Position numbers and translations under genes: made by a program. This document shows positions 15,356-61,171 of a stretch of 64,000 nucleotides of DNA, piece by piece (position 1 is the stretch's first letter; each line of letters begins with the position of its first letter). This stretch comes from Rhodococcus erythropolis NBRC 15567 (GTDB taxonomy: Bacteria; Actinomycetota; Actinomycetes; Mycobacteriales; Mycobacteriaceae), in contig NZ_BCRM01000001.1 of NCBI RefSeq assembly GCF_001552595.1, positions 682,001-746,000 on the forward strand. The letters are read 5' to 3'. The notes under the pieces were generated by a model. The model saw nothing but the letters and a program-made list of their open reading frames with translations. It was not told the origin of the DNA and ran no database searches.

Positions 15356-15814
15356 CTATTGTCCGAGCAGGATGACCGGAACGTCCTCGGCAAAATCGAC
15401 TACCAATTCACGACGCGAGAACAACCAGGTGCCGTCGACCTTTTCGAAGCTGTCCTGATAACGAATCTCGATCCGGTTGTCCCGGTGGCCCTCGCCCCGC
15501 GGATAGATGTGGTGAGCGGAGCAGTAGGCCTCACCGTGCGCGGTGGTGGGGCTGTCGAGGTCGAGGATCTGCTGCTCGACGATGTGCCGGGTCGAGTGCA
15601 GATGTGAGACGGCATCGACCACCGAACTGCTGACGACGGTGTTCCCACGTATCTCCGTCGGCGCATCCGTTCCGTTCAATGCCGGCGGCAAGACGAATGC
15701 CACGTCGTCAGTGAAGAGAGCCGCAAGCGCGGTGGTGTTTCGGCGGTCGACGGCCTGTGCATACCTGGCGGCCAAGTCGGTGAGAGCGACGCGATCCGAG
15801 GAGTCCATGCGCAT
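15356..15814 (-). CDS. SnoaL-like / NTF2-fold protein
   Basis: A 152-residue NTF2-like protein (also startable at 15808). The N-terminal pattern DLAARYAQAVDRRN and LAALFTDDVAFVLPP, the central HLHSTRHIV, and the terminal WLFSRREL are SnoaL_4-like. It is transcribed away from the ChsE-like operon and shares its 130-bp promoter region. It may be a hydratase, isomerase or ketosteroid-isomerase-like protein for the same pathway. It is one of five NTF2-like proteins in the first 25 kb. Confidence 0.83.
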   Translation of the reverse strand: MRMDSSDRVALTDLAARYAQAVDRRNTTALAALFTDDVAFVLPPALNGTDAPTEIRGNTVVSSSVVDAVSHLHSTRHIVEQQILDLDSPTTAHGEAYCSAHHIYPRGEGHRDNRIEIRYQDSFEKVDGTWLFSRRELVVDFAEDVPVILLGQ

Positions 15815-15944
15815 ATCTCACCCTATGTGACGCCGCTCATGTTTCGGCTTCCCGCTCAACGAGACATTCACAGCGCCCACCTGGGCATCTGGTTAGCGTC
15901 CAGACCAAGAGTTGCCAGCCATGAATGCCATAGGAGAAACAGCG

Positions 15945-17111
15945 ATGGATCTGAGGGAATCGCCCGAGCAGCAGGAGCTCCGCAAGGAGTTGCGCGCGTA
16001 CTTCGCGGCGCTGCTGCCGGAAGAGAAGCGTCGCGCGGCCGGCGAGCAAGGTGTGGGCGGCGAGTACTTCCGCGAGATCGTGAAGTTGCTGGGTAAGGAC
16101 GGCTGGCTCGGCATCGGTTGGCCCAAGGAATTCGGTGGACAGGGCCGCTCCATCGAAGAACAGTTCGTGTTCTTCGACGAGGTTCAGCGCGCGGGACTGC
16201 CGTTCCCCTTCGTGACGGTCAATACCGTCGGACCGACGTTGATGAAGTACGGCACCGAAGAGCAGAAGGAACGATTCCTGCCCGGCATTCTTGCCGGCGA
16301 CATCGTCTTCGCCATCGGCTACACCGAGCCCGAGGCCGGCACCGACCTCGCATCACTCAAGACTCGTGCGGTTCTCGACGGTGACGAGTGGATCGTCGAC
16401 GGCAACAAGATCTTCACCAGTGGCGCAAACACTGCCGACTACGTGTGGCTGGCCTGCCGCACCGACGCGGACGCCCCCAAGCACAAGGGCATCTCGATCC
16501 TGATCGTCCCCACCGAGGACGCAGGCTTCGAGTGGTCACCGATCAACACCGTCGGCGGTTTGATGGTGACGTCGACGTACTACTCCGGCATTCGTGTTCC
16601 GTCGAAGGACGTTGTCGGCGAGGTCAACGGCGGCTGGCAGCTCATCACGGCTCAGCTCAATCATGAGCGAATCGGCTTGGCGGCCATCGGTGGTCGCACT
16701 TACGGTCTGTGGAACCTGGTTCTGGACTGGGCCAAGGAAAATGGTGCCATCAACATCCCGTGGGTACAGCAGGACTTCGCTCGTACACACGCCAAGCTCG
16801 AGGCCATGCGCCTGCTGAACTGGAAGATGACGGCAGCCGTCGCACAGGACACGCTCTCCGGAGCCGACGCCGGCGCTACCAAGACGTACGGGACCGAGAC
16901 TCACGTCGACGTCTACCGCACCCTGCTCGGAATTCTCGGCTCCGCCGGACGCATCCGCCCCGAGTCTCCGGGCGCTTTGCTTGCCGGTCAGATCGAGCAG
17001 ATCTCGCGTCAGGGTGTCGTGAACACCTTCGGCGGCGGCGTCAACGAGGTTCTGCGTGACATGGTCGGCACCATCGGCTTGGGACTCGTTCGCGAAAAGA
17101 GGGTCAAGTGA
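15945..17111 (+). CDS. Acyl-CoA dehydrogenase, FadE29/ChsE2-like
   Basis: A 388-residue flavin-dependent acyl-CoA dehydrogenase. The ATG at 15945 is preceded by AGGAGA. Motifs include GIGWPKEFGGQGRS, AIGYTEPEAGTDLASLKTRA (FAD and substrate region), and a C-terminal FGGGVNEVLRDMVG. The length matches M. tuberculosis FadE29 (387). In that organism FadE28 and FadE29 form a heterotetramer that desaturates the steroid 3-carbon side-chain CoA ester. Here it is the first gene of a six-gene, mostly overlapping operon and is followed by ChsH2-like and second FadE genes. The steroid assignment is by context and length. Confidence 0.9.
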   Translation: MDLRESPEQQELRKELRAYFAALLPEEKRRAAGEQGVGGEYFREIVKLLGKDGWLGIGWPKEFGGQGRSIEEQFVFFDEVQRAGLPFPFVTVNTVGPTLMKYGTEEQKERFLPGILAGDIVFAIGYTEPEAGTDLASLKTRAVLDGDEWIVDGNKIFTSGANTADYVWLACRTDADAPKHKGISILIVPTEDAGFEWSPINTVGGLMVTSTYYSGIRVPSKDVVGEVNGGWQLITAQLNHERIGLAAIGGRTYGLWNLVLDWAKENGAINIPWVQQDFARTHAKLEAMRLLNWKMTAAVAQDTLSGADAGATKTYGTETHVDVYRTLLGILGSAGRIRPESPGALLAGQIEQISRQGVVNTFGGGVNEVLRDMVGTIGLGLVREKRVK

Positions 17112-18055
17112 GCGACATTTCGGCGCAACTCGACGCTTTTGTCGGCCAGACGCTTGTTCCCACAACCTGGGGACCCGACGAGGTCAACATCCCCATGATC
17201 CGGCATTGGGCCGAGACCATGGGCGATACCAACCCCGTCTACCTCGACGACGACGCTGCCCGCGCCACCGGCCGTGACGGCGTCGTCGCTCCCGCTCAGA
17301 TGCTCCAGGTCTGGATCATGCGGACGTTCACCGACAAGATGGCGGGCAACGACCCGTCGCAGGTGTGGACCGATCTGATCGCCACCCTCGACGCAGCGGG
17401 CTACAGCTCCGTCGTGGCCACCGATTCCGATCAGGAGTTCTTCGCCGAACTGCGCCCAGGCGATCGCGTGAACTACACCGAGGTCATCGAGTCGATTTCC
17501 CCGGAGAAGAAGACCGGCCTCGGCGTCGGACACTTTGTCACGACGCTCAAGACGTACCGCAACGGCGACGACGAAGTTGTCGGCACCCAACGGTGGCGGA
17601 CACTGCGGTTCAAGCCTCAGGAAGCTGCTGCACCGGAGGCGCCGCGCGCTCTGCGTCCGCGTCCGGCTCTCAACGCGGACAACGCTTTCTGGTTCGAAGC
17701 GGCCAAAGAGCATCGTCTGGTGATCCAGCGCTGCACGTCCTGCAAGACGTTGCGTCATCCCACCGGCCCGATGTGCGGGGAGTGCCAGTCACTCGAGTGG
17801 GACACGATCGACGCGTCGGGGCGGGGCACGGTGTTCAGCTTCGTGGTCAATCATCACCCCAAGATCGACGCGTTCGACTACCCGCTCATCGTTGCGGTAA
17901 TCGAACTCGAAGAGGGAACCCGATTGATCGCCAACATGGTGGGTATCGCGCCCGAAGATGTCGTGGTCGACATGCCCGTGGAACTTGACTGGATCGACGC
18001 CGACCCGGATCTGACGCTTCCCGCGTTCCGGCCGGCCGTACGCGAGGAGCACTGA
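17108..18055 (+). CDS. ChsH2-like fused MaoC hydratase / DUF35 OB-fold protein
   Basis: A 315-residue two-domain protein. The N-terminal half is a MaoC-like hotdog (about residues 10-180, with ETMGDTNPVYLDDDAA). The C-terminal half is a DUF35 domain with a rubredoxin-like zinc ribbon (CTSCKTLRHPTGPMCGEC) and an OB fold. M. tuberculosis ChsH2 (311 residues) has this architecture. Its MaoC half pairs with ChsH1 to hydrate the steroid enoyl-CoA, and its DUF35 half binds the Ltp2 aldolase. Start GTG overlaps the FadE stop (GTGA). Finding ChsH1- and Ltp2-like genes next supports the assignment. Confidence 0.9.
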   Translation: MSDISAQLDAFVGQTLVPTTWGPDEVNIPMIRHWAETMGDTNPVYLDDDAARATGRDGVVAPAQMLQVWIMRTFTDKMAGNDPSQVWTDLIATLDAAGYSSVVATDSDQEFFAELRPGDRVNYTEVIESISPEKKTGLGVGHFVTTLKTYRNGDDEVVGTQRWRTLRFKPQEAAAPEAPRALRPRPALNADNAFWFEAAKEHRLVIQRCTSCKTLRHPTGPMCGECQSLEWDTIDASGRGTVFSFVVNHHPKIDAFDYPLIVAVIELEEGTRLIANMVGIAPEDVVVDMPVELDWIDADPDLTLPAFRPAVREEH

Positions 18056-19170
18056 TGGACTTCAATTTCAGCGAAGAGCAGGACGCGATTCGCTCACTGG
18101 CCGACGAGGTCTTCACCAGCAAGGCAACGATCGAGCGCACCAAGGAGATCGAACTCTCCGCCGAGCGCGTCGACCGTGAACTGTGGCGAGAACTCGCGAC
18201 CACCGGCCTGCTCGGTATCGCCCTGCCCGAGGGGTTCGGCGGCGGCGGACTCGGCTTGTCCGAGCTGTACGCACTGCTGGAGGAGCAGGGCCGTCACGTT
18301 GCGGCCGTGCCGATCTGGGAAACGACCCTTGCGGCATTGGCTGTCAATGAATTCGGTTCCGATTCCCTTCGTGCCGAGCTCCTTCCGAGTGTTGCCGACG
18401 GCAGTCGATTCCTGACCGTCGGTCTCGAAGAGTTCGGTCCGTACACGGGCGGCGACCCACTGACCACGGCCGAGCAGGACGCCGACGGCAACTGGACCGT
18501 GACGGGTGAGAAGGCAGTAGTGCCGATGACTCACGTCGCAAACCTTGCTCTCGTTTCGGCAACCGCTTCCACCGGTACGGCACTGCTGCTTGTGGATCTG
18601 AGCGCCGAAGGAGTGACGCTCGAACAGACGCAGTCCACCAACTGGGAGATCTGTGCCAACGTCACCTTTGCCGGTGCCCCCGCGCAGCTGATCGGTGCGG
18701 CCGATGGTACGACGGTTCCGTGGCTGATCGACCGAGTTGAACTGGCGTTGGCAGCAATTCAATGGGGTGTCGGCTCGGGTGCAGTCGCACAGGCTGTCAC
18801 GTACCTGAACGGCCGCAAGCAGTTCGGCCGTCCGCTGGCGACCTTCCAGGCCGTCAATCATCAACTCGCTGACTGCTACATCGATCTCGAAGCGATGAGG
18901 GTGACACTGTGGCAGGCCGCCTGGCGTATCTCCGAGGGATTGGATCTCGGCACCTCGGTACTGGTCGCCAAGTGGTGGGCAACCGACGGCGGACAGCGCG
19001 TCGTGCATCGCACCACGCATGTTCACGGCGGTATGGGCGTCGACACCGACTACCCGGTTCACCGTCACCTCTTGTGGGGCAAGCAGATTGCTGCCACCCT
19101 CGGCGGTTCCAGCTCCGATCTCGCGCGTCTGGGTGCGCAGCTCGCATCCGGTGTGGAGGTGCTCGCATGA
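18055..19170 (+). CDS. Acyl-CoA dehydrogenase, FadE28/ChsE1-like
   Basis: A 371-residue acyl-CoA dehydrogenase, shorter and more divergent than its partner, as in FadE28 (339 residues). Seen motifs are GIALPEGFGGGGLGLSELY, NGRKQFGRPLATFQAVNHQLAD and the C-terminal HRTTHVHGGMGVDTDYPVHRH. The usual YCxTEPxxGSD-like FAD loop is not recognisable, as expected for the half of a heterotetramer that shares flavin sites. It is placed between chsH2 and chsH1 homologues, a gene order unlike the mycobacterial operon. It overlaps the previous stop by one base. Confidence 0.87.
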   Translation: MDFNFSEEQDAIRSLADEVFTSKATIERTKEIELSAERVDRELWRELATTGLLGIALPEGFGGGGLGLSELYALLEEQGRHVAAVPIWETTLAALAVNEFGSDSLRAELLPSVADGSRFLTVGLEEFGPYTGGDPLTTAEQDADGNWTVTGEKAVVPMTHVANLALVSATASTGTALLLVDLSAEGVTLEQTQSTNWEICANVTFAGAPAQLIGAADGTTVPWLIDRVELALAAIQWGVGSGAVAQAVTYLNGRKQFGRPLATFQAVNHQLADCYIDLEAMRVTLWQAAWRISEGLDLGTSVLVAKWWATDGGQRVVHRTTHVHGGMGVDTDYPVHRHLLWGKQIAATLGGSSSDLARLGAQLASGVEVLA

Positions 19171-19595
19171 CCGTTCTTGCCGGTCGTAGCTACGCAGACG
19201 TCGTTGTCGGAGAGGCATTGCCCGAGTTGGCGATCCCGTTGACCCGTACGTTGATCGTCGCCACCGCAATCGCCACTCGCGATTTTCAGGACGTGCACCA
19301 CGATCCGAGCCTGGCCCAGGAGCGCGGATCCAAGGATGTCTTCATGAACATCCTCACGAGCAACGGTCTTGTCGGTCGATACGTCACGGACTGGGCCGGA
19401 TCTGCATCGACCTTGCGCCGCATCGCCATTCGTCTCGGGGCGCCCAACTACCCGGGTGACACCATGACGATGACCGGTGAGGTCGTGTCCAAGGAAGATG
19501 GAGTGGTCGTGGTCAAGGTGCAGGGTGCAAACAGCCTCGGCAACCATGCATCCGGCACCGTCGCAGTCGCTTTCAAGGAAGAGGAGAGGCTCTGA
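19167..19595 (+). CDS. ChsH1-like MaoC hydratase subunit
   Basis: A 142-residue single hotdog-fold protein starting MTVLAGRSYADVVVGEALPE. The active-site segment is IATRDFQDVHHDPSLAQE, with the Asp and His expected of R-specific enoyl-CoA hydratases. In mycobacteria ChsH1 (129 residues) supplies the catalytic half of the ChsH1-ChsH2 hydratase. ATG overlaps the FadE stop (ATGA), and its own stop overlaps the aldolase start. Confidence 0.88.
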   Translation: MTVLAGRSYADVVVGEALPELAIPLTRTLIVATAIATRDFQDVHHDPSLAQERGSKDVFMNILTSNGLVGRYVTDWAGSASTLRRIAIRLGAPNYPGDTMTMTGEVVSKEDGVVVVKVQGANSLGNHASGTVAVAFKEEERL

Positions 19596-20773
19596 TGGCG
19601 ATCAGCCCACTCTCGGGAGCCGCCGCCATCGTCGGCATCGGATCCACCGAGTTCTCCAAGAACTCCGGCCGCACCGAACTGCAGTTGGCGTGTGAGGCCA
19701 TCGTCGCGGCACTCGCTGACGCCGGTATCGACCCGTCCGAGGTCGACGGTCTGTCCACCTACACGTCGGAGACGAACGGCGAAGCCATTGTGGCTCGCAA
19801 CTGTGGCCTCGGCGAGCTGAAGTTCTTCTCGCGCATTCACTACGGCGGCGGCGCCGCGTGTGCCACCGTGCAGCAGGCGGCCATGGCAGTTGCGACGGGT
19901 GTTGCCGACGTCGTGGTTTGTTACCGCGCCTTCAACGAGCGCTCCGGTGTGCGCTACGGCCTTGGGCAGCACGATCGACCCATGGACAGCACCGCGGATC
20001 GCGCGGCATATGCGTGGATGACTCCGCAGGGATTGTCGACTCCCGCTCAGTGGGTCGCCATGTTCGCCCGCCGTTACATGCACCAGTACGGTGCGACGAG
20101 TGAGGACTTCGGACGAGTTGCAGTGGTGGCGCGCAAGCATGCCGCCAACAACCCGGCTGCCTGGTTCTACGAGCGTCCGATCACACTCGAGGACCATCAG
20201 AACTCGCGCTGGATCGCCGAGCCTCTGCACCTGCTCGACTGCTGCCAGGAAACCGACGGCGGCCAGGCATTGGTCATCGTCTCTGCCGAGCGCGCAAAGG
20301 ATCTGGCCAACAAGCCCGTCATCATCAAGGGCGCCGCTCAGGGCAGTAGCAAGGATCAGCACATGATGACCAGCTACTACCGTCCTGACATCTCGGGTAT
20401 CCCGGAGATGGGCCTGGTTGCTCGTCAGTTGTACGGCCAGAGCGGCCTGACCCCTGATGACATCAACGCCGCGATTCTGTACGACCACTTCACCCCGTTG
20501 GTGCTTCCGCAGCTCGAAGAACTGGGCTTCTGCAAGCCAGGCGAAGCCAAGGACTTCATTCGCGAAGGCAACCTCGAGATCGGTGGACGCTTGCCGTCCA
20601 ACACTCACGGTGGTCAGGTCGGCGAGGCATACCTGCACGGCGTCAACGGAATTGCCGAAGGTGTGCGACTGGTCCGAGGAACGTCGACCAATCAGCCCGA
20701 CGGCGTCGAAAACGTCTTGGTCACAGCCGGAACGGCAGTGCCCACCAGCGGTCTCGTTCTGGGCGCTGTTTAA
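19595..20773 (+). CDS. Ltp2-like thiolase-fold lipid-transfer protein / aldolase
   Basis: A 392-residue SCP-x/thiolase-fold protein, near Ltp2 length (386). Seen features are AAIVGIGSTEFSKNSGRTE, LACEAIVAALADAG, GGGAACATVQQAAMAVATGVAD, and the C-terminal GGRLPSNTHGGQVGEAYLHG. In Ltp2 this fold works as a retro-aldolase that removes the last side-chain carbons from a 17-hydroxy steroid CoA ester, docked on the DUF35 domain of ChsH2. Its position directly after ChsH1 and in the same operon as ChsH2 fits that role. A true thiolase role is less likely. Confidence 0.9.
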   Translation: MAISPLSGAAAIVGIGSTEFSKNSGRTELQLACEAIVAALADAGIDPSEVDGLSTYTSETNGEAIVARNCGLGELKFFSRIHYGGGAACATVQQAAMAVATGVADVVVCYRAFNERSGVRYGLGQHDRPMDSTADRAAYAWMTPQGLSTPAQWVAMFARRYMHQYGATSEDFGRVAVVARKHAANNPAAWFYERPITLEDHQNSRWIAEPLHLLDCCQETDGGQALVIVSAERAKDLANKPVIIKGAAQGSSKDQHMMTSYYRPDISGIPEMGLVARQLYGQSGLTPDDINAAILYDHFTPLVLPQLEELGFCKPGEAKDFIREGNLEIGGRLPSNTHGGQVGEAYLHGVNGIAEGVRLVRGTSTNQPDGVENVLVTAGTAVPTSGLVLGAV

Positions 20774-20787
20774 GAGAGGAAATGACA

Positions 20788-21609
20788 GTGACAACTTCGG
20801 AAGCTGCGAAGACCGCCGGCGATTGGCGCGGAGCCGATCTCGGTACCCGCACCGTGGCGTACACCGAGCGCGACGCGATCTTGTACGCACTCGCCGTGGG
20901 CGCCAAGGCAACCGAGCTGGACCTCGTCTTCGAGGATCAGCTTCGGGTACTGCCGACTTTTGCTCTCACACTGGCACAGTGGGCTCCCGACGCTCTGGGT
21001 TCGGCGGGCGCCTTCGACACCTCGACGGCACTGCACGGCTCGCAAGAGTTGAAAGTGCTTGCTCCGCTTCCGCGTAGCGGTGAGGTGACGTTGAAGGCTT
21101 CGGTCGGCGAGGTGTGGGACAAGGGTGCTGCGGCCGTTTTCGAAGTGAAGGTGGAGTGCGAATACTTCGTCGCGACCTGGTCACTTTTTGCTCCCGGTGC
21201 CGGCGGATTCGGCGGAGAACGTGGACCCTCACGTCCGGCGGAGCCGACCGGTGAGCCTTCGTTGACCGGTGTGCTGACCACAGCGGAGAACCAGACGGCG
21301 ATGTACCGGCTCCTGGGCGACAAACACCACATCCACATCGATCCCGAGGCTGCGGCGCGGATCAACCAGCCGCGTCCGATCATGCACGGGCTGTGCACGT
21401 TGGCCGCCAGCACACTCGAGCTTGCTCGGATCGCCGGAGTGCATCCGGCTGATCTTGTCAGTCTCGAGGGCCGATTCGCTGCGGCGATCCATCCGGGTGA
21501 GTCGCCGTCCATCGTTGCGTGGGGAACTCCCGACGACCTGGCCTTCCAGGTCACCAAGGGTGATCAGGTAGCGATTTCCGGTGCACGAGTGAGCTTCTCC
21601 GCTCACTAG
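20788..21609 (+). CDS. Double-hotdog enoyl-CoA hydratase 2 (MaoC), ChsH3/Hsd4B-like
   Basis: A 273-residue protein with two hotdog folds. The C-terminal fold has the hydratase 2 motif (YRLLGDKHHIHIDPEAA, then PRPIMHGLCTLA) with the catalytic Asp and His. The N-terminal fold (about residues 20-150) is the non-catalytic substrate cap. GTG at 20788 has an ideal 7-bp gap from AGAGAGGA; an ATG six bases earlier is too close. The length and architecture match mycobacterial Rv3538-type steroid hydratases. It ends the six-gene operon before two strong hairpins. Confidence 0.87.
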   Translation: MTTSEAAKTAGDWRGADLGTRTVAYTERDAILYALAVGAKATELDLVFEDQLRVLPTFALTLAQWAPDALGSAGAFDTSTALHGSQELKVLAPLPRSGEVTLKASVGEVWDKGAAAVFEVKVECEYFVATWSLFAPGAGGFGGERGPSRPAEPTGEPSLTGVLTTAENQTAMYRLLGDKHHIHIDPEAAARINQPRPIMHGLCTLAASTLELARIAGVHPADLVSLEGRFAAAIHPGESPSIVAWGTPDDLAFQVTKGDQVAISGARVSFSAH

Positions 21610-21719: not shown

Positions 21720-22496
21720 TCAGTCCTGATGGGTCGCCATGTAGCGAGCCGGGTACTCACCGCCGCCGTGAACGGCGATGTCGGCGCCGTTGACGTACGA
21801 GGAGAGTGGGCTCGCCAGGAACAGGCAGGAGTTTGCGATATCGGCCGGGACGGCCATGCGCTCCATCGGAATGGTCCTGGTGACCGCCGCGCCGCCGTCG
21901 GCGCCGTAGACCTCGGCGGCAGCCTCGGTACGGATCAGGCCGGTGGTGATGTGGTTGATCCGGACCTTCGGCGCCCATTCGAGGGCCAATGCCTTGGTCA
22001 GAACGAGGAGGCCGGCCTTGGCTGCGCTGTACGCCGCGGTTCCGGGCTGCGGATCGATTGCCGAGACACTGCCGATGTTGATGATGGCACCGCCGTCGTC
22101 CTGAGTCTGCATCACTGCGTTGGCGGCCTGGGCAACGTTGAAGGGTGCCAACAGGTTCAGCGCCACGATCTTCTCGACGAAGCGGGGTGACACCGTCGCA
22201 GCATCGGCATCGGGGGAGCCGCCGGCGTTGTTGACCAGGACGTCCAGACGGCCGAAGCGCTCGACGGCATCCTGGACGAGGGCTGCGGCGTCGGCGGGAT
22301 CGCGGACGTCCGTGGCGCGAAAGGCTGCGCTACGGCCGTCGGCGGTGGGTAGGTTTTCGGGCTCGTTACGGCCACAGACCAGCACGTTCGCACCCGCGGC
22401 GAGGAAGGTTTCGGCGATGACGTAGCCGATGCCTTTGGTGCCGCCGGTGACGATCACCGAGCGTCCGCTGAAATCGACGGGGTTGGGCAGTGTCAC
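21720..22496 (-). CDS. SDR family oxidoreductase
   Basis: A 258-residue classical short-chain dehydrogenase. I chose GTG at 22496 (VTLPNPVDFSG), which follows AGGAAGG; longer frames add an unconserved leader. Motifs are VTGGTKGIGYVIAETFL, VNNAGG, Ser in NIGSVSA, YSAAK, and a typical C-terminal SSYVNGADIAVHGGGEY. It diverges from another SDR across a 198-bp gap that holds a KstR2-like palindrome. A role in steroid ring or side-chain catabolism is likely but the substrate is unknown. Confidence 0.87.
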   Translation of the reverse strand: MTLPNPVDFSGRSVIVTGGTKGIGYVIAETFLAAGANVLVCGRNEPENLPTADGRSAAFRATDVRDPADAAALVQDAVERFGRLDVLVNNAGGSPDADAATVSPRFVEKIVALNLLAPFNVAQAANAVMQTQDDGGAIINIGSVSAIDPQPGTAAYSAAKAGLLVLTKALALEWAPKVRINHITTGLIRTEAAAEVYGADGGAAVTRTIPMERMAVPADIANSCLFLASPLSSYVNGADIAVHGGGEYPARYMATHQD

Positions 22497-22577
22497 GGTG
22501 GAGCCTTCCTGGTGCGGTGCCGAGCTGAATTGCCGCCCAATGTGATTGACGCGACGTGGTCGCACACCTTAGGGTCA

Positions 22578-22591
22578 AGCAAGTGCTTGGT
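22578..22591. promoter_or_regulatory. KstR2-like operator
   Basis: AGCAAGTGCTTGGT matches the KstR2 consensus AnCAAGnnCTTGnT at every fixed base. It sits between two divergent SDR genes, 82 bp from the leftward start and 104 bp from the rightward start. KstR2 represses genes for degradation of the steroid C/D-ring remnant and is relieved by its CoA thioester. The kstR2 gene itself is not in the window. Other TetR regulators also use CAAG-N2-CTTG cores. Confidence 0.65.
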
Positions 22592-22694
22592 TGTTTTGTA
22601 GGTCGAGTGTAGACGACAAACGGCGGCAGTCACCAGAATCGACCGGTCCTTCCCGCAAAGGGACCTCTGCGTCGACAGACATTGGAGTAGTCAC

Positions 22695-23456
22695 ATGGGC
22701 AAGCTCGAAGGCAAAGTTGCACTCATCACGGGTGCGGGTCAGGGAATCGGGCAGGGGATTGCCTTGGCCTTGGCCAAAGAGGGCGCCGTGATCGCCGTTG
22801 CCGGTCGCACCGAATCCAAGTTGCACACCACATGCGGACTACTCGCTGACATCGGTGCGCGCGGTGAGGCCGTGGTTTGTGACGTCAGCAAGAAGGACGA
22901 CATCACGGCGGCCGTGGACCGAACCGTCGAACTGTTCGGCGGAATCGACATCCTGGTCAACAACGCCAACGACTGCAAGCCAGGCCCGCTCTTGAGCGTG
23001 CTGGACGAAGACTTCGAGCGTTCCTTCGCGACGGGCCCACTCGCCACCCTGCGCATGATGCAGGCGTCGTACCCGCACATGAACAGTCGTGGGGGCGGCG
23101 TCATCATCAACATGGTCACCTCGGCGGCCGTGCGCTGGGATGCCAGTAACTACGGCGCTTACGGTTCCATCAAGGAAGGCATGCGCTCGTTGACCCGCGC
23201 TGCCGCCTGCGAATGGGGCAAGGACAACATCCGCGTTCTCAATGTTGCACCGCACGCCAAGACCCCTGCGTTGCAGTGGTGGATGGACAAGAATCCGGAA
23301 GAGGCGGCGGCTTTTGTCGCGGGTATCCCGCTGGGACGCGTCGGAGATCCCGAGACCGACATCGGTCGTGCCGTCGTCTTCCTCGTCAGCGAAGACGCCG
23401 GTTACCTGACGGGTGCCACGATCCCGCTCGACGGCGGTCAGTCGCGCTGGGGCTGA
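22695..23456 (+). CDS. SDR family oxidoreductase
   Basis: A 253-residue classical SDR starting MGKLEGKVALITGAGQGIGQG. Other motifs are NNANDCKPGP, TSAAVRW (Ser), YGAYGSIKEG (catalytic YxxxK), and LTGATIPLDGGQSRWG at the end. It is downstream of the KstR2-like site and divergent from another SDR. It is probably a hydroxyacyl-CoA or hydroxysteroid dehydrogenase in the local catabolic pathway. It converges on a third SDR with 15 bp between stops. Confidence 0.87.
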   Translation: MGKLEGKVALITGAGQGIGQGIALALAKEGAVIAVAGRTESKLHTTCGLLADIGARGEAVVCDVSKKDDITAAVDRTVELFGGIDILVNNANDCKPGPLLSVLDEDFERSFATGPLATLRMMQASYPHMNSRGGGVIINMVTSAAVRWDASNYGAYGSIKEGMRSLTRAAACEWGKDNIRVLNVAPHAKTPALQWWMDKNPEEAAAFVAGIPLGRVGDPETDIGRAVVFLVSEDAGYLTGATIPLDGGQSRWG

Positions 23457-61123: not shown

Positions 61124-61137
61124 TTGAACGTGTTCAA
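61124..61137. promoter_or_regulatory. TetR operator copy 1
   Basis: TTGAACGTGTTCAA has perfect 6-bp arms and lies 14 bp before the TetR start codon. Confidence 0.7.
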
Positions 61138-61157
61138 GTTCAGCGTACGCCCTGAAG

Positions 61158-61171
61158 TTGAACACGTTCAA
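61158..61171. promoter_or_regulatory. TetR operator copy 2
   Basis: TTGAACACGTTCAA is the reverse complement of copy 1. The two centres are 34 bp apart. Confidence 0.7.

Follow-up and report, generated by a model that had tools for sequence, protein, structure and literature searches.

Positions 22576-22591 of the 64-kb stretch of DNA analysed here (the window) almost certainly hold a real and conserved operator of the KstR2 type, as judged from its sequence and from its counterparts in related genomes. We consider it likely that KstR2 represses from this site the two divergent short-chain dehydrogenase genes SDR1 and SDR2 (Table 1), that HIP-CoA lifts the repression, and that SDR1 reduces HIP-CoA. 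In the absence of steroid, KstR2 would occupy the shared 198-bp promoter region and shut down transcription to either side, of SDR1 and SDR2 alike. Breakdown of a steroid, be it cholesterol, cholate or another, would yield HIP, from which FadD3 would form HIP-CoA, and HIP-CoA would free the operator of KstR2, a release known for KstR2 of other species. SDR1 and SDR2 would then be turned on jointly with the ipd and fadE30/fadD3 genes. The most likely task of SDR1 would be that of ScdB in Comamonas, reduction of the HIP-CoA ring ketone, by which the inducer would be removed. A wider reading, which we put forward tentatively and rate just short of even, is that the Rhodococcus cholate cluster has its own ScdB-type HIP-CoA reductase under KstR2, that in the erythropolis lineage this enzyme might have displaced the ipd-linked Rv3549c for all steroids, and that inducer removal might act as a negative feedback tying cholate side-chain removal to C/D-ring breakdown.

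Table 1. Coordinates of the features discussed, in window positions.
Feature	Positions	Strand	Remarks
SnoaL_4-domain protein	15356..15814	-	Conserved edge of the same module as the operon below
casLMNOP-like side-chain operon with MaoC hydratase	15921..21609	+	Convergent with SDR1; module neighbour without a KstR2 site
SDR1	21720..22496	-	Member of the PRK07856 family, of Rv3549c type and, from its gene context, ScdB; probably reduces HIP-CoA; start GTG 22496
Weak possible SDR2 promoter	22546..22575	+	TTGACG, 18 nt, TAGGGT; its end abuts the operator; chance-level match
KstR2-type operator CAAGCAAGTGCTTGGT	22576..22591	.	Two overlapping dyads, (i) and (ii); predicted from sequence
Dyad (ii) of the operator	22576..22589		CAAGC-N4-GCTTG
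Dyad (i) of the operator	22578..22591		Fits AnCAAGnnCTTGnT
SDR2	22695..23456	+	Short-chain dehydrogenase, catalytic motifs complete; invariably paired with SDR1 in divergent orientation

The operator and its setting

A first-pass annotation had described a perfect KstR2 consensus site between divergent SDR genes, and both points hold: the 14-mer AGCAAGTGCTTGGT is an exact fit to AnCAAGnnCTTGnT and the sole match in the window, whether no or up to one mismatch is allowed. By chance, 0.04 exact matches would be expected in the window, and 4 of 100 shuffles contained one. The element conserved on the plus strand, CAAGCAAnTGCTTGGT, is two bases longer than the one first reported, and the operator is better written as the 16-mer of Table 1 than as a 14-mer. 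Its second dyad also has a single match in the window (0.05 expected). The start of SDR1 is most likely the GTG preceded by AGGAAGG and not position 22565, which sets the intergenic length. The operator is in the promoter region near both start codons, at a distance of 81 bp for SDR1 and 103 bp for SDR2, although SDR2 is slightly beyond the 22-82 bp that separate published KstR2 sites from regulated genes in PMC3068626. The possible -35/-10 pair of SDR2 is of a kind expected 0.54 times by chance, and a stricter scan found no good promoter in the SDR1/SDR2 intergenic region.

The genome scan for the motif that the annotation had proposed gave a divided result. The same 14-mer recurs at fadE30/fadD3, but AnCAAGnnCTTGnT has only eight exact places in 6.59 Mb against 17 for the backward-read control, that is, no enrichment, and a consensus match by itself is therefore weak evidence. 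Dyad (ii) behaves alike (12 occurrences genome-wide versus 50 for its control), so that the weight rests on context here too. Four of the eight places fall within long reading frames; the other four are intergenic according to the gene caller, namely the window site, fadE30/fadD3 and two places beside TetR genes on contigs C17 and C18 that encode KstR2 paralogues. Our literature search, which was far from exhaustive, found no published account of the 22576-22591 site.

SDR1 and the PRK07856 family

SDR1 scores 375 bits on PRK07856 (NF005893), for which the curated cut-off is 255, and is the only member of this family in the genome. Among 121 genomes from the order, 39 carry the family, and its neighbourhoods were read in 20 of these 39. 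Most of the 20 share one arrangement: echA20-ipdABC face the PRK07856 gene, which comes first on its side and is followed by an Rv3548c-type gene, and a KstR2 site lies between the divergent genes. This is the position of Rv3549c. Three loci (L113, L115, L116) have the same genes in another layout and lack a site even when one mismatch is tolerated, two (L121, L123) have the PRK07856 gene in other steroid-gene contexts with sites present, and one (L122) has it beside window-type genes with no site. Identity of SDR1 with Rv3548c is ruled out, as the family holds the first position beside the echA20 operator, that of Rv3549c. The ipd locus of the present genome lacks the Rv3549c gene; site and Rv3548c-type gene are both there.

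Rv3549c is an SDR of the KstR2 regulon (PMC5380842). Like the ipd-linked genes of its type, SDR1 lies above the PRK07856 cut-off, but it belongs to a separate clade. A tree of 41 sequences, built without outgroups because these gave long-branch distortion, splits the window-type proteins from the ipd-linked Rv3549c clade, and one common clade was rejected (p-AU 1e-53); identity between the two types is about 46-58%. With score and the loci read used to tell the types apart, ten of 28 congeneric genomes had the window type only, eleven had both, six had the ipd-linked type only and one, 75% complete, had none, while both Prescottella genomes carry both types. The tree split and the status of the window type as sole PRK07856 gene in ten of the 28 genomes indicate that SDR1 is, by sequence, a family member and paralogue of Rv3549c, not its orthologue, and the sole family member in its lineage; paralogy does not assure equal function. 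Relocation of Rv3549c itself is ruled out by the tree and by the genomes that hold both types. SDR1 probably fills the role of Rv3549c in this lineage.

Published work suggests what that role may be. The available part of the 2017 pathway paper leaves the steps of Rv3548c and Rv3549c unassigned and names HIP-CoA as the KstR2 effector (Crowe 2017, PMC5380842). A report of 2026 describes ScdB of Comamonas testosteroni TA441 as an SDR that reduces 9,17-DOHNA-CoA, i.e. HIP-CoA, an assignment made from product accumulation and modest activity, and places scdB and scdH just upstream of chsH2E1H1ltp2chsE2 (PMC13101464). We opened five plasmid regions with PRK07856 genes, two of which, from Vibrio (pVa1) and Novosphingobium, carried usable annotation. 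The pVa1 SDR scores 389.8 bits on PRK07856 and stands in the layout scdH-scdB-chsH2-chsE1-chsH1-ltp2-chsE2 (enoyl-CoA hydratase, SDR, OB-fold/ChsH2, dehydrogenase, MaoC, lipid-transfer protein, dehydrogenase), so that its gene lies beside chs genes as scdB does in TA441. This TA441-type layout suggests that PRK07856 is the ScdB family, an equation based on gene context in which TA441 ORF39 is linked through the Vibrio pVa1 layout and not by direct sequence comparison. In Novosphingobium, the PRK07856 gene is followed by one gene and then a CoA-transferase pair. SDR1 likewise adjoins chsE1E2H1H2ltp2-type genes, in an order and strand arrangement that differ from TA441. A concrete candidate function would thus be at hand for Rv3549c. 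In strain engineering, SDR1 would be the deletion target if HIP is to accumulate in R. erythropolis-like strains, since a second family member was not found there.

SDR2 is the divergent partner of SDR1 in all 23 window-type loci. As a guess, it might act at a hydroxysteroid step on bile-acid-derived intermediates.

A cholate-type module beside the operator

The first-pass annotation had tied the SDR genes, and perhaps a neighbouring igr-like operon, to steroid breakdown. For the SDR genes this is borne out by the presence of KstR2, an operator identical to a canonical one, its conservation in Rhodococcus and Prescottella, and the membership of SDR1 in the Rv3549c family. For the operon it is not: it converges on SDR1, its own promoter is about 6.6 kb from the operator, and the window contains no second KstR2 site with up to one mismatch and so none near 15921. 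Neither did we find a KstR-type palindrome near 15921 with what we take to be the KstR motif, and footprinting upstream of 15921 by sequence comparison of relatives revealed no clear palindrome. With no site near 15921, control of the operon by KstR2 or KstR is not supported, and its link to KstR2 would be one of neighbourhood only. Nor does the operon fit what is presumably the gene order of the igr (cholesterol) operon.

Its order of acyl-CoA dehydrogenase (ACAD), hydratase, ACAD, hydratase and aldolase, with a MaoC hydratase after these, is instead shared with casLMNOP, which are the genes for the C3 side chain in the cholate cluster of R. jostii RHA1 (PMC8399759, Table 1). Large Rhodococcus genomes share the order SnoaL, casLMNOP-like genes, MaoC, SDR1, site and SDR2. 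A ferredoxin-reductase-like gene follows SDR2 in them (as at L165), where RHA1 has kshB3 (PMC8399759, Table 1); unlike RHA1, the present window has no such reductase gene after SDR2. With CasP as RS28460 and KshB3 as RS28480 (PMC8399759), the RHA1 SDR pair would be expected from position near RS28470-28475; it is not described in the cholate table of that paper (Table 1). According to PMC4810484 and PMC8399759, C/D-ring genes are absent from the cholate genes of Rhodococcus; the latter's own table includes a single HIP thiolase that lies away from the cholesterol cluster. SDR1, a C/D-ring gene indicated inside a cholate-type module, would be an exception.

The SnoaL_4 protein at the edge of this module has only weak PDB matches. 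It is ruled out as ScdH, which is an enoyl-CoA hydratase (PMC13101464), and is a candidate for the 12-hydroxyl dehydratase of Rhodococcus bile-acid breakdown. In two genomes (G154 at L171, G085 at L122), SDR1, the two dehydrogenases and MaoC are kept, and the ChsH2, ChsH1 and Ltp2 genes between them are missing.

That the SDR pair is embedded, along with a SnoaL protein, in a cholate module of casLMNOP-like genes also gives substance to a different function, in which SDR1 and SDR2 would be controlled by KstR2 but would have as targets, instead of the HIP-CoA ring ketone, bile-acid-specific hydroxyl or keto groups at position 7 or 12. The RHA1 enzymes for the 12-hydroxyl group are listed as unknown in the cholate table (PMC8399759), and the eleven congeneric and two Prescottella genomes with both PRK07856 types suggest a division of labour. 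On the other hand, in the ten congeneric genomes that have the window type alone, the present one included, this type would have to cover the common step too, and in G049 (L121) a window-type gene stands within an ipd-gene cluster that lacks an ipd-linked-type copy, which argues against a role specific to bile acids. We regard such a function as rather unlikely.

Conservation of the operator and its probable regulator

Among relatives in the named collection, all eight from Rhodococcus and Prescottella have the operator (five exact, three with one mismatch), and a ninth close relative, a Streptomyces, has a form with two mismatches. Our set of window-type promoters comprised 23 loci, from 21 genomes of the genus (counting the present one) and two Prescottella. 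The operator is exact in nine of them, has one mismatch in twelve and two in G133, and is absent in G138; 21 of the 23 loci thus have it with no more than one mismatch, and SDR1 and SDR2 are retained in the other two. In shuffled upstream regions, with the 23 window-type and 19 ipd-linked loci pooled, a match with one mismatch at most arose in 19 of 8400 trials. An alignment of the 23 intergenic regions gave a mean column identity of 0.93 for the 14 dyad columns and of 0.46 elsewhere, and the dyad is the best-conserved stretch.

Exact sites occur in nine of the ten genomes that have the window-type PRK07856 gene alone. The 13 that carry both types have no exact site, and among them are G138 and G133, where the site is lost or weakened. 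This fits selection on the site where the gene stands alone, with the ten genomes forming one kin group and not an independent test. Dyad (ii) is exact in 20 of the 23 window-type promoters and in all 19 ipd-linked promoters of the Rv3549c type (17 from Rhodococcus, two from Prescottella). It is exact as well in the published, EMSA-positive Rv3549c/Rv3550 site, and the published kstR2 and fadE30/fadD3 sites are one base short of it. KstR2 sites before Rv3549c-type genes share this CAAGC-N4-GCTTG form, and the usual 14-mer scan scores them as imperfect or misses them.

The genome is that of a Rhodococcus from the erythropolis/qingshengii group, with R. qingshengii and other Rhodococcus as its closest named relatives. 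Its KstR2 is encoded at C3:163223-163891 and scores 363 bits against PDB 2ibd and 242 bits against KstR2 of M. tuberculosis. It is flanked by fadA6-type and ipdF-type genes, which fadE30 and fadD3 adjoin; the FadD3 family score is 690 bits, and the fadE30/fadD3 promoter on C3 holds a 14-mer identical to that of the window. We built a KstR2 matrix from nine published sites and scanned 302,752 bases of the 6.59 Mb, in which the window and fadE30/fadD3 sites are joint top with 23.34 bits; lower scores were obtained for the Rv3548c/echA20 site (20.47) and for those on C17 (19.07) and C18 (16.66). The window site resembles the KstR2 operators of M. tuberculosis, M. smegmatis and R. jostii RHA1 in its 14-bp palindrome, its divergent promoter and the presence of KstR2 (PMC3068626). 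Its 14-mer is identical to the Rv3560c/Rv3561 and ro04595/ro04596 sites, the first of which, as an EMSA probe, was bound by M. tuberculosis KstR2, and both of its dyads are found in the Rv3549c/Rv3550 site (same source). We infer that KstR2 binds the window operator as well. Unlike the published sites, it lies outside the cholesterol/ipd region and beside cholate-type genes; Kendall 2010 (PMC3068626) predicted no more than three sites in each genome, every one of them close to kstR2. The Rhodococcus KstR2 regulon would thus gain a conserved target away from the cholesterol region.

The TetR proteins on C17 and C18 are the nearest KstR2 paralogues in the genome (34% and 39% identity), have a recognition helix almost that of KstR2 and stand beside CAAG/CTTG palindromes, the C17 one within a side-chain cluster; one of them might bind the operator in response to another steroid or acyl-CoA. 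They are serious rivals, yet we hold this to be improbable. Their sites score below the window site on the KstR2 matrix, and the core of the latter is identical to the fadE30/fadD3 site. Moreover, six of 21 genomes searched (G132, G134, G137, G138, G139, G156; E 1e-18) have a single member of the KstR2 subfamily, which is KstR2 by its neighbours and 81-82% identity, and lack both paralogues. Since the operator is kept in five of these six, G138 being the exception, KstR2 suffices to explain its conservation. It is hardly credible that the palindrome is the hairpin of an intrinsic terminator or arose by chance. A stem of eight pairs at 22573-22592, after which the plus strand reads GTTTTG, and the chance-level genome-wide count of the palindrome are set against the lack of any plus-strand gene ending ahead of the stem, the dyads without a T tract in relatives (L050, L051, L166, L167) and the position of the dyad as a conserved island between two divergent starts.

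Several further loci may deserve attention. At 61124-61171, the window has two palindromes, TTGAACGTGTTCAA and TTGAACACGTTCAA, that are similar to the KstR motif as we assume it to be and lie 34 bp apart from start to start (0.3 expected in the window). Around C17:119000-131000 (L035, L102) there is another side-chain cluster of the chs/Ltp2 kind. It encodes a steroid thiolase (597 bits on PRK07850) and a KstR2 paralogue of its own, and AGCAAGCGCTTGAT at C17:129664 resembles a KstR2 site. At C18:85700-86650 (L036), the other KstR2 paralogue is next to a branched-chain-type ABC transporter and has CAAG/CTTG sites on both sides (C18:85715 and C18:86629).
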